DNA from: Bacteroidota bacterium
GTDB taxonomy: Bacteria > Bacteroidota > Bacteroidia > Flavobacteriales > Flavobacteriaceae
Reading direction: 5' to 3'
NCBI GenBank assembly: GCA_018829465.1
Contig: JAHJTN010000017.1
Coordinates: forward strand, 124,001-188,000
Length of the DNA stretch: 64,000 bases
Shown here: one piece after another, positions 39,122-42,171 of the stretch
Position numbering within the stretch: position 1 is the first letter of the stretch
Layout: each line of letters opens with the position of its first letter
Translations under genes and position numbers: made by a program
The notes under the pieces: generated by a model
Told to the model about the DNA's origin: nothing
What the model saw: only the letters and a program-made list of their open reading frames with translations
The model's database searches: none

Positions 39122-41752
39122 TTAAAGTTTATACGTAAGCCTTGCAAAATAGAAAGCTCCTGTTGTTCCCATCTGTACGGGTGCATATTTGAATACGCCG
39201 AAAAAACTATTGTCATATTCTTGTCTGTCAGGAAATACATCAAATACATTGTTGACACCAGCAGTAAATTGCAAACCGTTAAACAGTTTGACTGTACCGG
39301 TCAAATCGGTTACCGTTCGCGGGTCGTGTTTTTGCGAAACGCCAAACGGGAAACCGTTTCTTGTCACCTGACCAAAATAGGTATTTCTCACGAGAAAATT
39401 AAATCTGCCAATGGCGTAATTCAAATTGAGTATTGCCTTGTGCTTGGGGATGTTAGACTCAATCAAACTTTTTTCTTGTGGGCCAAAATACACATCTTCC
39501 TGACCGATAAATGCCTCGGGGAGGTTGTTGATGCCATCTTTTACGTTGTTGTCGTTGATGTTGTACAACAAAGATGCCGTGAGTTTGCCACCGCCCAAGC
39601 CGGTATTGTAATCGACCACCAAGTCCAATCCGTTGGTTTCGGTATCGACCGCATTGGTAAAAAACCGTCCGGTGGAAGCCCCAAATTGACCGAAAAGATC
39701 TCTGAGTTCAGGCACCGGATCGCCAAACGGATCATTGCCCAAACTTCCTGTCAAAATGATGCGGTCGTCTATTTCGATGCGATAGGCATCTAAAGTGAAC
39801 GATAGATTTTTAAGTGGTTTGTAGGTAAACCCGACGCTATAACTCACAGAGGTTTCTTCTTCTAACTCAGGGATTCCGAGTTGTTTGGCAACCTCGCTGT
39901 CGTTTCTGAAGATTCCGGTATTGAGCAATTCGCCATCAACGATATCTGTGGCAATGTTGTTGAAAAACTGTTGGTGCAGCGATGGTGCCCTAAAACCCGT
40001 GCTGATAGCTCCGCGAACGGCCAACGCATCGGACAGTTCGTATCGAGCCGTCAACTTTCCATTGAATGTGTCGCCAAAATCGCTGTAATCTTCGTATCTT
40101 CCGGCAAGGCCAATCAGGAAATTGTCAGTGACCTCTGCTTCCAAATCTATATAAAAGGAAACGCTGGTTCTGTTTTCAGCAACGGCATTCAAGGGTGAGA
40201 ATCCGGGAAACGATTGCGCGCCACCGTTGATAAAAGAAGCTTCTTCACCTGCCGTAATTTCGTAACGTTCGTACCTGAATTCAGACCCGATCGCCACGTT
40301 CAGGCCGTTGAGTATATAATCGTAATATTTTCGGGCATCCAAATTGACCGTGTTTTGAAAAAACTCGTGTCCACCGGCATCAAATTTGGTTGGGCTGTTG
40401 ACCCCTAATGAGGGGTTGTTGCTGTTTTCGACGGTAAAATCAAAAATGTTTTCTCCAAGCGTGTTGCTCAAATCAAGATCCCACCGGCCCAGTTTGAAAC
40501 GCACACCTGTTGACAGCGATTGGTCGCTGATGTCTGACAATAAAGAAGGTTGGAAACCGAACGGGAACAATTCGGGCACTACGTTGTCGGTCTCGCTTGG
40601 CAAACGTCTAAAACCGAAGCCTTGCCCGTCGCGGACATTCATTCCTCCCGACAGATAGAAAACGGCTTTGTCGGAAAACGGATATTCCAAATTTAGAAAA
40701 CCTTGTATATTTCGAATGGCAGCATCACCTACCTGAAAGTTGAAATCATCACGTTCTAAACCATTTTCAGCCAATCTTTGGTCGTCAATTTCCCTGGCAT
40801 TCGGGTTGCTGAAATCGTAAGCGAAAAAGTTACCAAATTCGGATTGGTCAAAAATAATCAAGTTGTGATTTTGGCTTCGGTTTGTTTTTTGGCGGTCGTT
40901 GAATCCCAAAGTGAGGTTGTAAAACCCGCCATCATCACCCAATTTGGCGCCGTAATTGAGATTTACATCTACCGTTTCCCCGTCTGCCCTTGAGGTTTGG
41001 CCATAAGTGGTATTGACTTCCAAACCGCTATCCTTTTTTAGGATCAGGTTGATGACACCCGCGATGGCATCTGAGCCGTACTGAGCAGAGGCACCATCCC
41101 GCAACACTTCCACGCGTTCGATGGCTGCTGCCGGAATCGCACTTAAATCTGTCCCGACCGAGCCATTGCCAAACGTGCTTTGGTTGTTGACCAATGAGGT
41201 GGTGTGCCTTCTTTTTCCATTGATCAATACCAAGACCTGGTCGGGACCTAAACCGCGAAGCGATGCCGGGTCGATATGCTCCGTTCCATCTGAGGCAGAC
41301 TGCCGATTGTTGTTAAAAGAAGGCACTAAATAATTCAACATATCATTGATGTTGGTCTGCGGCAAAGTGGTTTTGATTTCATTTAAAGGCACCACATCTA
41401 CCGGAACAGGCGTGTTGAGTTTACTCCTATTCGGATTGCGGCTTCCGGTAAGCGTGATTTCGCTCAGGCCCTCTGTTCTTGATTCGAGCGAAACATTCAT
41501 GGTATTTCCCTGAACAAGAACTTCTTTAGCCTCAAAACCGAGTATTGAAAAAACCAGCGTTTGCCCCACTTGCGCCTGAATTTGAAACTTTCCGTCAAAA
41601 TCGGTTGTGGTACCCATCTGCGTCCCTTTGATGACAATGTTTACACCCGGTAGCGGAATACCCGATGGGTCTGAGACAACGCCTTTAATAAAGTTTTGGG
41701 CTTGCAATGTGAGCCCGAATACCAACGATAGAAAAAATAGTTTTGTTTTCAT
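39122..41752 (-). CDS. TonB-dependent outer-membrane receptor
   Basis: 876 aa from ATG 41752 (MKTKLFFLSLVFGLTLQAQ, signal peptide). Order: a carboxypeptidase-regulatory-like domain (FIKGVVSDPSGIPLPGVNIVIKGTQMGTTTDFDG), then a plug (about residues 110-225: NTPVPVDVVPLNEIKTTLPQTNINDML, GLGPDQVLVLINGKRRHT, IERVEVLRDGASAQYGSDAIAGVIN), then a 22-strand-type barrel ending FYFARLTYKL. No SusD partner is adjacent, so a small ligand rather than a glycan is plausible. A Cys-rich leader and terminator lie upstream. Confidence 0.93.
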   Translation of the reverse strand: MKTKLFFLSLVFGLTLQAQNFIKGVVSDPSGIPLPGVNIVIKGTQMGTTTDFDGKFQIQAQVGQTLVFSILGFEAKEVLVQGNTMNVSLESRTEGLSEITLTGSRNPNRSKLNTPVPVDVVPLNEIKTTLPQTNINDMLNYLVPSFNNNRQSASDGTEHIDPASLRGLGPDQVLVLINGKRRHTTSLVNNQSTFGNGSVGTDLSAIPAAAIERVEVLRDGASAQYGSDAIAGVINLILKKDSGLEVNTTYGQTSRADGETVDVNLNYGAKLGDDGGFYNLTLGFNDRQKTNRSQNHNLIIFDQSEFGNFFAYDFSNPNAREIDDQRLAENGLERDDFNFQVGDAAIRNIQGFLNLEYPFSDKAVFYLSGGMNVRDGQGFGFRRLPSETDNVVPELFPFGFQPSLLSDISDQSLSTGVRFKLGRWDLDLSNTLGENIFDFTVENSNNPSLGVNSPTKFDAGGHEFFQNTVNLDARKYYDYILNGLNVAIGSEFRYERYEITAGEEASFINGGAQSFPGFSPLNAVAENRTSVSFYIDLEAEVTDNFLIGLAGRYEDYSDFGDTFNGKLTARYELSDALAVRGAISTGFRAPSLHQQFFNNIATDIVDGELLNTGIFRNDSEVAKQLGIPELEEETSVSYSVGFTYKPLKNLSFTLDAYRIEIDDRIILTGSLGNDPFGDPVPELRDLFGQFGASTGRFFTNAVDTETNGLDLVVDYNTGLGGGKLTASLLYNINDNNVKDGINNLPEAFIGQEDVYFGPQEKSLIESNIPKHKAILNLNYAIGRFNFLVRNTYFGQVTRNGFPFGVSQKHDPRTVTDLTGTVKLFNGLQFTAGVNNVFDVFPDRQEYDNSFFGVFKYAPVQMGTTGAFYFARLTYKL

Positions 41753-41811
41753 AATCTTATTTATTGTGATGCCTTTATTGAATAGCATCTGTTAGTGTTG
41801 AATTTTTTTAT

Positions 41812-41842
41812 AAAAAAAACCTCGCATAAAATATGGGAGGTT
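41812..41842 (-). terminator. intrinsic terminator in the TonB-receptor leader (putative attenuator)
   Basis: On the minus strand AACCTCcCATA pairs with TATGcGAGGTT (one C-C mismatch, tiny T-rich loop), followed by an uninterrupted run of eight T. It ends 59 nt before the receptor's start codon and begins 29 nt after the stop of the Cys-rich ORF, so it would stop transcription before the receptor gene unless disrupted. Confidence 0.85.
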
Positions 41843-41871
41843 ACTTACAGGTTTTTGACCTTTGTATCGGG

Positions 41872-41919
41872 TCAACAACTGCAGCAACACATTCGGAGTG
41901 TACACATAAGTTTTGTCAT
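41872..41919 (-). CDS. Cys-rich leader peptide (15 aa) upstream of the TonB receptor
   Basis: ATG 41919 to TGA 41872 encodes MTKLMCTLRMCCCSC: five Cys (three consecutive) and three Met in 15 residues. It begins about 26 nt after the predicted transcription start and ends shortly before an intrinsic terminator. Rare-residue runs of this kind are the hallmark of ribosome-stalling leader peptides such as those of the trp, his and polycysteine attenuators. Expression and regulatory function are inferred from this arrangement. Confidence 0.65.
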   Translation of the reverse strand: MTKLMCTLRMCCCSC

Positions 41920-41950
41920 AGCAATAAAGAATTTAGTAAAATTTAAAGGG

Positions 41951-41980
41951 CAAAAGTATCACTTTTTTCAAATTCTACAA
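41951..41980 (-). promoter_or_regulatory. promoter of the leader / TonB-receptor transcript
   Basis: TTG (41980-41978) and TACTTTTG (41958-41951) separated by 19 nt give a perfect match to the Bacteroidota TTG-N19-TAnnTTTG promoter. Predicted transcription start about 41945. Confidence 0.7.
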
Positions 41981-41984
41981 ATCT

Positions 41985-42171
41985 GGTAGAGTTTTTTTTT
42001 TACACATAGGCACATACATATTTTTGATGACAAATAAATCCAAAAAAAATATATGATTTGAAGACGTTAAATTCATTTTGTGTGAATAAAAATATACTGC
42101 TTTAACACCCTCTACTGTTATTTTGTTAAAAAAAATCACTAAAATTGTTCGGTTTTTAAAAAATCAAACTT
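41985..42171. other. AT-rich intergenic DNA before the DPP-IV gene
   Basis: About 190 nt between the leader promoter on the minus strand and the dipeptidyl-peptidase start. It presumably includes that gene's promoter; only imperfect TAAAATTG-like boxes were seen. No ORF or RNA structure is convincing. Confidence 0.35.

Follow-up and report, generated by a model that had tools for sequence, protein, structure and literature searches.

The locus lies on the minus strand of the window, by which we mean the whole 64,000-nt stretch of DNA that was analysed and which belongs to a 3.07 Mb assembly that is 99.5% complete (hereafter the own genome). In the direction of transcription the sequence reads as an operator-like palindrome, a predicted promoter, a short Cys-rich leader ORF, an intrinsic terminator and the ATG of a gene for a TonB-dependent receptor (table 1). 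The promoter is made up of a TTG at 41980-41978, a 19 nt spacer and TACTTTTG at 41958-41951, an arrangement which we take to be the Bacteroidetes-type consensus. The word TAnnTTTG occurs a single time within the 410-nt stretch scanned around the leader, and 7 of the 8 bases of the -7 box are identical between the window and each of its genus relatives. The leader ATG is located 31 nt downstream of the -7 box, the transcript start being a predicted one. The terminator has the sequence AACCTC-C-CATA-TTT-TATG-C-GAGGTT followed by eight T, with one C/C mismatch in the stem, and both genus orthologues carry a similar terminator in which U/U replaces C/C; the window terminator is absent from the list of a stricter terminator scan and was found by a rule allowing one mismatch in a long stem. 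The receptor start was taken at ATG 41752, which gives the signal-peptide-like MKTKLFF, and a further in-frame ATG is present at 41788. Promoter, 15-codon leader, terminator and receptor ATG are thus confirmed where the preliminary description had placed them. The amino-acid permease gene that follows is probably in one operon with the receptor; a permease-like ORF 3′ of the receptor was also seen, by eye, in loci L011/L069, L031 and L032. Within the window there were no Rfam matches at gathering scores.

Table 1. Positions of the receptor leader locus in the window and of the sister leaders at other loci of the genus.
Feature	Position	Strand	Basis or remark
Palindrome TCTACCAGATTTGTAGA, operator-like	41974..41990	minus	overlaps the -33 TTG; sequence
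Promoter TTG-N19-TACTTTTG, Bacteroidetes-type, predicted	41951..41980	minus	sequence
Leader ORF MTKLMCTLRMCCCSC, 15 codons plus TGA	41872..41919	minus	sequence, orthologues
Cys6 codon, proposed sensing codon	41902..41904	minus	kept in three of three genus genomes
Cys11-13 codons (CCC)	41881..41889	minus	conserved RMCCC
Stem P1 strand 1 (GUUGCUGCAG), predicted	41879..41888	minus	folding model
Stem P1 strand 2 (CUGUAAGUAAC), predicted	41840..41850	minus	overlaps first terminator bases
Stop-codon hairpin UUGACC/GGUCAA	41855..41875	minus	AAUCG/CGAUU at the same place in the relatives
Intrinsic terminator, 1x1 mismatch, eight T	41812..41842	minus	sequence; similar one in both orthologues
TonB-dependent receptor	39122..41752	minus	PF13715 (carboxypeptidase-regulatory-like), PF07715 (plug), PF00593 (barrel)
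Amino-acid permease, PF13520	37802..39094	minus	27 nt downstream of receptor
Own-genome cys leader	L123:1249-1326 (G000:C4)		ends in LRCCC and stop; hairpin 3′ of the ORF without T-run
G002 cys leader	L119, about 1262-1330 (G002:C171)	reverse	upstream of PF01507 gene
Tandem leaders MKNILVINCCMMCQNLPEVLGVVV and MKVIVRLVSVNCCMSMCMCMPMG, each with stop	L226:1097-1440 (G002:C220)		terminator after each; upstream of OAH/OAS sulfhydrylase

The window holds 686 ATG-started ORFs of 8-30 codons, and at least three Cys are found in 21 of them. Both signals, defined as TAnnTTTG at most 90 nt upstream and a terminator start at most 90 nt downstream (one stem mismatch allowed), are present at one of the 686, and this one is the leader. 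Taking the Cys frequency of long ORFs in the window (0.81%), five Cys in 14 residues has a binomial probability of about 6e-8; in the short ORFs the frequency is 3.5%, and one of the 686 has at least five Cys. When the same scan was applied to genus loci, a mutually overlapping set picked for its sulfur or receptor genes, seven rows carried both signals and six of these were Cys-rich (four of five after duplicates had been removed).

At the same receptor a leader is present in all three genus genomes examined, each time with 15 codons: MKYFNCMIRMCCCRN (L011) and MKCFNCTMRMCCCKS (L012) correspond to MTKLMCTLRMCCCSC in the window. Cys6 and RMCCC are retained in all three. The RMCCC codons are 93-100% identical, as against 44-83% for the other parts of the ORF; identity to the window is 58% for codons 1-8 in either relative, 28-38% for the stretch between stop codon and terminator, and 44-48% for the stretch between terminator and receptor ATG. 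The central claim of the preliminary description, namely that a leader attenuator with Cys codons acts on a TonB receptor, therefore passes the comparative test. It had also pointed to two hairpins, AGGT-CAAAA-ACCT and GACC-N9-GGTC; both occur in the window, without being conserved in sequence in the two relatives. A named close relative, 'Flavobacteriales bacterium CG_4_9_14_3_um_filter_40_17', has a receptor with 92% identity.

Outside the genus, the search for a Cys leader with promoter box and terminator was negative at 17 loci of receptor orthologues (16 from Flavobacterium and one from 'Flavobacteriaceae bacterium CRH', 63-66% identity), at L031, L032 and L048, where receptor identity is about 60-64%, and at 25 more distant receptor loci. 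Short ORFs with CC are present at L043, L046 and L013, the last being the second receptor of G002, none of them with both signals. The pattern C..RMCCC (TGYNNNNNNMGNATGTGYTGYTGY) matches in 10 of 397 genomes of the family, and three of these matches are the genus leaders. The remaining seven were rejected as leaders: L061 has an ATG-started frame, MCLKRMCCCCRMAVIIFLTK, without promoter and terminator, L063 lies inside a long ATG-started frame, likewise without the two signals, and L059, L060, L062, L067 and L068 have no in-frame upstream ATG. The scan for promoter and terminator covered L059-L063, five of these seven, and found none. Judged from these comparisons, the receptor leader appears genus-specific as far as sampled.

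Cys leaders are also present at two other sulfur loci in the genus, which speaks for the Cys-leader idea of the preliminary description. Genes of the cysH type (PF01507) are preceded by MKSNIHSPIFMMLPQHIFEVLRCCC in the own genome and by MIINCICRPMICVKLTSPRLLL in G002, both ending at a stop codon, with leader ATGs 28 nt and 31 nt, respectively, from the start of the TAnnTTTG box; two species of the genus thus have unlike Cys leaders at this type of gene. The own-genome PF01507 gene product matches phosphoadenylyl-sulfate reductase. At the PF01507 locus of G001 the contig starts inside the hairpin. In G002 a tandem pair of leaders precedes a gene for O-acetylhomoserine/O-acetylserine sulfhydrylase (TIGR01326, 655 bits; cut-off 495), and only the first leader of the pair has its own promoter box within 90 nt. 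The second one contains NCCMSMCMCMPMG. It is possible that these tandem Cys/Met leaders form an attenuator that senses both sulfur amino acids.

The search for such leaders was extended to other loci. At 30 cysD loci of other Flavobacteriaceae none of 1295 short ORFs was a Cys leader with promoter box and terminator. The same holds for the PF00291 loci of the genus, where ORFs with CC occur in L127, L129, L133 and L137 without both signals and where L143 has both signals at an ORF without Cys. Among 13 PF01053 loci inspected upstream, such leaders are present at L226 only. A Cys run followed by a stop codon (TGYTGYTGYTRR) is found at 41 sites of the own genome and at 38 for the reversed control; of the 30 Cys-run sites followed up as loci, one (L177) corresponds to the own-genome cys leader.

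Folding was modelled for the transcript just after the 5′ arm of the terminator has been made, with the RNA masked up to a point 12 nt beyond the first base of the codon in the A-site. In all three receptor leaders the model contains a stem, P1, which pairs the CCC codons with a strand running into the terminator base; its register is shifted by one codon between the window and the relatives. With Cys6 in the A-site, the first three bases of the terminator 5′ arm are paired with probabilities of 0.99, 1.00 and 1.00 in the three leaders, and with the ribosome at the stop codon the same bases are paired at 0.07 in the window, 0.52 in G001 and 0.04 in G002. The stalled value was reached by 5, 15 and 3 of 400 shuffles (window, G001 and G002) and the stall-minus-stop difference by 10, 103 and 10 of 400. 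Each shuffle control permutes one sequence, and since the receptor leaders are related these counts are not to be multiplied. When the ribosome is on CCC or at the stop, the pairing of the arm bases is 0.03-0.20 in the window and 0.00-0.06 in G002; in G001 it is still 0.55-0.81 with the ribosome on CCC. Because P1 joins the Cys-codon run to the terminator base, the permissive ribosome state would be a stall at Cys6 and not on CCC. The model thus places the switch at Cys6 instead of CCC; in it a ribosome on CCC favours the terminator, which fits poorly with CCC as the sensor.

The modelled effect on the receptor terminator is a partial one. With Cys6 occupied, pairing averaged over the whole 10-11-base arm is only 0.27-0.37. 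In the full-length equilibrium the lowest terminator pair of the window falls from 0.85 to 0.25 and the next two are partly opened, pairs 4-6 remain at 0.9-1.0 in all three receptor leaders, and the minimum-energy full-length fold retains the terminator in every ribosome state tried. The stretch of the window from the Cys codons to the terminator is more stable than 200 of 200 shuffles (z -3.83); for longer leader folds z is -1.63 and -1.29, which is not significant, the native stability being equalled or exceeded by 16 and 23 of 200 shuffles. Folding of the receptor leader yielded no classical 2:3 antiterminator.

In the G002 cys leader and the first sulfhydrylase leader the antiterminator strand lies in the ORF past the last Cys codon. 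Measured over eight arm bases, and not over three as for the receptor leaders, sequestration in the model is 0.76 stalled versus 0.27 at the stop in the former and 0.92 versus 0.17 in the latter. The stalled value is reached by 13 (cys, G002), 10 (first sulfhydrylase) and 156 (second sulfhydrylase) of 400 shuffles and the stall-minus-stop difference by 19, 18 and 37, respectively. According to the model, the G002 cys leader and the first sulfhydrylase leader follow the usual logic, in which starvation leads to read-through, and the modelled switch of the second sulfhydrylase leader is unconvincing. The own-genome cys leader does not fit the scheme, its Cys codons lying 3′ of the candidate antiterminator strand. 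A mutually exclusive antiterminator is therefore clear in the model for two sister leaders, whereas the receptor leader contests only the terminator base. Since its predicted antiterminator does nothing more than weaken that base, the direction of control rests mainly on the two sister leaders.

We consider it probable that the receptor leader is a ribosome-mediated, Cys-tRNA-responsive transcription attenuator of a sulfur-linked TonB-dependent receptor, and that it probably controls the amino-acid permease together with the receptor. Transcription would begin about 25-30 nt upstream of the leader. On the one hand, when Cys-tRNA is ample, the ribosome would pass Cys6, reach CCC and the stop codon and cover strand 1 of P1, the full terminator would form and the receptor would be off. 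On the other hand, when Cys-tRNA is scarce, the ribosome would stall at Cys6 and leave the CCC codons free to pair with strand 2, and this pairing would capture the first bases of the terminator stem, weaken termination and allow the receptor to be made. The anatomy of the locus, the conservation in three genomes and the sister leaders at sulfur genes are observed, and the pairing is modelled; from these we infer ribosome stalling, read-through, the direction of control and a sulfur-carrying cargo. We place considerably more confidence in the mechanism class, Cys-codon leader attenuation, than in the way the receptor leader is modelled to switch, which is held loosely. If true, a TonB-dependent receptor would be governed by the cost of translating Cys codons.

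The palindrome at the window promoter is of the class [TC]CTA[TC]N7[GA]TAG[GA]. Sites of this class were counted outside long ORFs (ORFs of at least 100 residues were masked except for their first 60 nt), and they are present at 23 of 30 cysD loci from Flavobacteriaceae (36 sites, 23.1 kb) and at 12 of the 17 loci of receptor orthologues from outside the genus (12 sites, 16.8 kb), compared with 1 of 28 loci of other receptors (1 site, 15.0 kb). At 7 of the 30 cysD loci (L146-L175; the receptor set is L070-L086) the palindrome is paired, the copies being about 80 nt apart. At cys operons and receptor the palindrome is likely to be the operator of a sulfur regulator. The window palindrome TCTACCAGATTTGTAGA has one mismatch in each of the two genus relatives, and a narrower form of it occurs 19 times in the own genome as compared with 39 for the control. 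In the absence of enrichment in the own genome, the palindrome at the window promoter is suggestive and serves as supporting context. A palindrome-like word is also carried by the first codons of the PF01507 genes (L123:1402-1418, L118 about 50-66, and L119). As the third base of that word the own genome has T where both relatives have G, which is the same difference as in the receptor palindrome and may be a synonymous codon change only. We put forward tentatively, at somewhat less than an even chance, that sulfur control in this genus has moved from a DNA-operator regulator, as suggested by the palindrome in other Flavobacteriaceae, to separately arisen Cys/Met-codon attenuators, single or tandem, the receptor included, so that outer-membrane nutrient uptake would be set directly by tRNA charging.

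What does the receptor carry? The sulfur-amino-acid role is direct for the cysH-type and OAH/OAS sulfhydrylase genes, and the receptor is linked to it by context. In L072, one of the orthologue loci outside the genus, the divergent gene beside the receptor matches SAM hydroxide adenosyltransferase (PF01887, PF20257), and similar divergent ORFs adjoin the receptor in L070, L075 and L081, the Pfam run having covered L072 alone. The protein of this type beside the receptor has a signal-peptide-like start. This neighbour hints that the cargo may be SAM or a SAM product. All three genus genomes contain a SAM_HAT gene, located away from the receptor, and the loci taken for it show no palindrome. Comparison with the nearest solved sequences, those of siderophore, colicin I and B12 receptors, gives matches mostly within the plug and leaves the cargo open. 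Before the receptor in two genera, a similar protein of about 450 residues is encoded (L032:4160-5518 and L048:2936-4279, minus strand); the L032 protein has no Pfam match in the 285 residues searched. If the attenuator is real, the leader itself hints at a sulfur or cysteine source as the cargo.

Other readings of the locus have to be weighed against attenuation by a stall at Cys6. The control could have the opposite sign: under Cys shortage a stall on CCC would mask strand 1, the terminator would form and the receptor would be off, and with ample Cys P1 would form after release and the receptor would be on. This would explain the strict conservation of CCC directly, and for the window and G002 the model does leave the base of the terminator arm free once the ribosome has reached CCC or the stop. 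However, a starved ribosome reaches Cys6 first (in L012 also Cys3), the arm bases of G001 stay paired in the model with CCC occupied, and the two clearest sister leaders at sulfur genes show the usual sign, also in the model; we regard the opposite sign as unlikely. A DNA-binding sulfur regulator acting at the palindrome could be the sole control, leaving leader and terminator as a constitutive damper or a vestige. The palindrome, of the class found at cys operons, sits over the -33 box, and 12 of the 17 orthologue loci outside the genus have it and no leader. Yet it is mismatched in both relatives, no other part of the region is as well conserved as RMCCC when the relatives are compared with the window, and other sulfur genes are preceded by different Cys leaders, which makes regulator-only control quite improbable.

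Short ORFs are abundant in the window and one of them could stand beside an ordinary terminator by chance, but this is very unlikely considering that length, Cys6 and RMCCC are kept in three genomes and that the combination of promoter and terminator is found at a single short ORF. Still less credence is given to a nascent-peptide sensor of metal or redox state, in which the Cys-rich peptide would bind copper or another thiophilic agent in the manner of CruR. At 15 residues the peptide would still be enclosed in the ribosome tunnel, and the leader has neither RAPP nor CXXC nor a DUF2946-like length. Moreover, the sister leaders precede genes of sulfate reduction and a sulfhydrylase gene, not metal genes. 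There is a precedent in CruR, a CXXC-containing upstream ORF that controls a TonB transporter (PMC9426467). The link to a metal or oxidant that had been considered in the preliminary description found no evidence, and its interpretation as a whole is partly supported.

Attenuation by stalling at Cys6 places the leader next to several known systems. In attenuation of the trp/his type there are regulatory codons, a stem containing them and an intrinsic terminator. The receptor leader shares all three: a short ORF in which codons for a single amino acid are clustered lies between the predicted promoter and the gene, and a terminator precedes the gene; unlike that type, it has no separate 2:3 antiterminator, and two sister leaders are three-strand. 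The closest layout is that of the uORFC-8-2 motif upstream of cysS in Rhodobacterales, a short ORF with tandem Cys codons whose first stem includes these codons and whose second is the terminator, with read-through proposed under Cys-tRNA shortage (PMC8632094). That motif controls cysteinyl-tRNA synthetase in Alphaproteobacteria, whereas here, in Flavobacteriaceae, a TonB receptor and sulfur-synthesis genes would be controlled, and the receptor leader has an additional conserved Cys at codon 6; lying before a TonB receptor in a flavobacterium, it falls outside the motif as defined.

Short leaderless polycysteine ORFs are described in mycobacteria (Canestrari et al. 2020, as cited by PMC9031893 and PMC9094748), for which Cys-leader candidates are also given in PMC4633059. 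For Actinobacteria, leaders of cys operons are predicted, without a conserved terminator hairpin (PMC1262725). With these the genus leaders share the short ORF upstream of sulfur genes and the Cys run near the stop, but the mycobacterial ORFs are leaderless and the receptor leader has a predicted 5′ UTR and an intrinsic terminator; given its predicted transcript start, it is not a leaderless ORF. Within the same family, leader-peptide attenuation has been proposed at amino-acid biosynthesis operons of Flavobacterium psychrophilum, but no cysteine leader or receptor control is named in the passages on them (PMC9723704). Leader-peptide-like short ORFs are mentioned for Bacteroides thetaiotaomicron (PMC7366714). 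CruR is an upstream ORF controlling a TonB-dependent copper transporter, with DUF2946, copper sensing through CXXC, RAPP arrest and Rho-dependent termination (PMC9426467). Control of a TonB-dependent transporter by an upstream ORF is what it has in common with the proposed role of the leader, whose 15 residues contain neither the CXXC nor the C-terminal RAPP of the DUF2946 protein.

Searches of the open-licence literature brought up no Cys leader described on a TonB receptor or in Flavobacteriaceae. Our reading, if true, would extend Cys-codon attenuation to Bacteroidota and provide a natural set of variants, from the textbook three-strand switch to a tandem pair, for testing its rules. The kind of leader is already known from Actinobacteria and from cysS in Rhodobacterales, and what is new, as far as the literature searches reach, is that such leaders occur in this host group, that the gene under control would be a receptor and that Cys/Met leaders stand in tandem.
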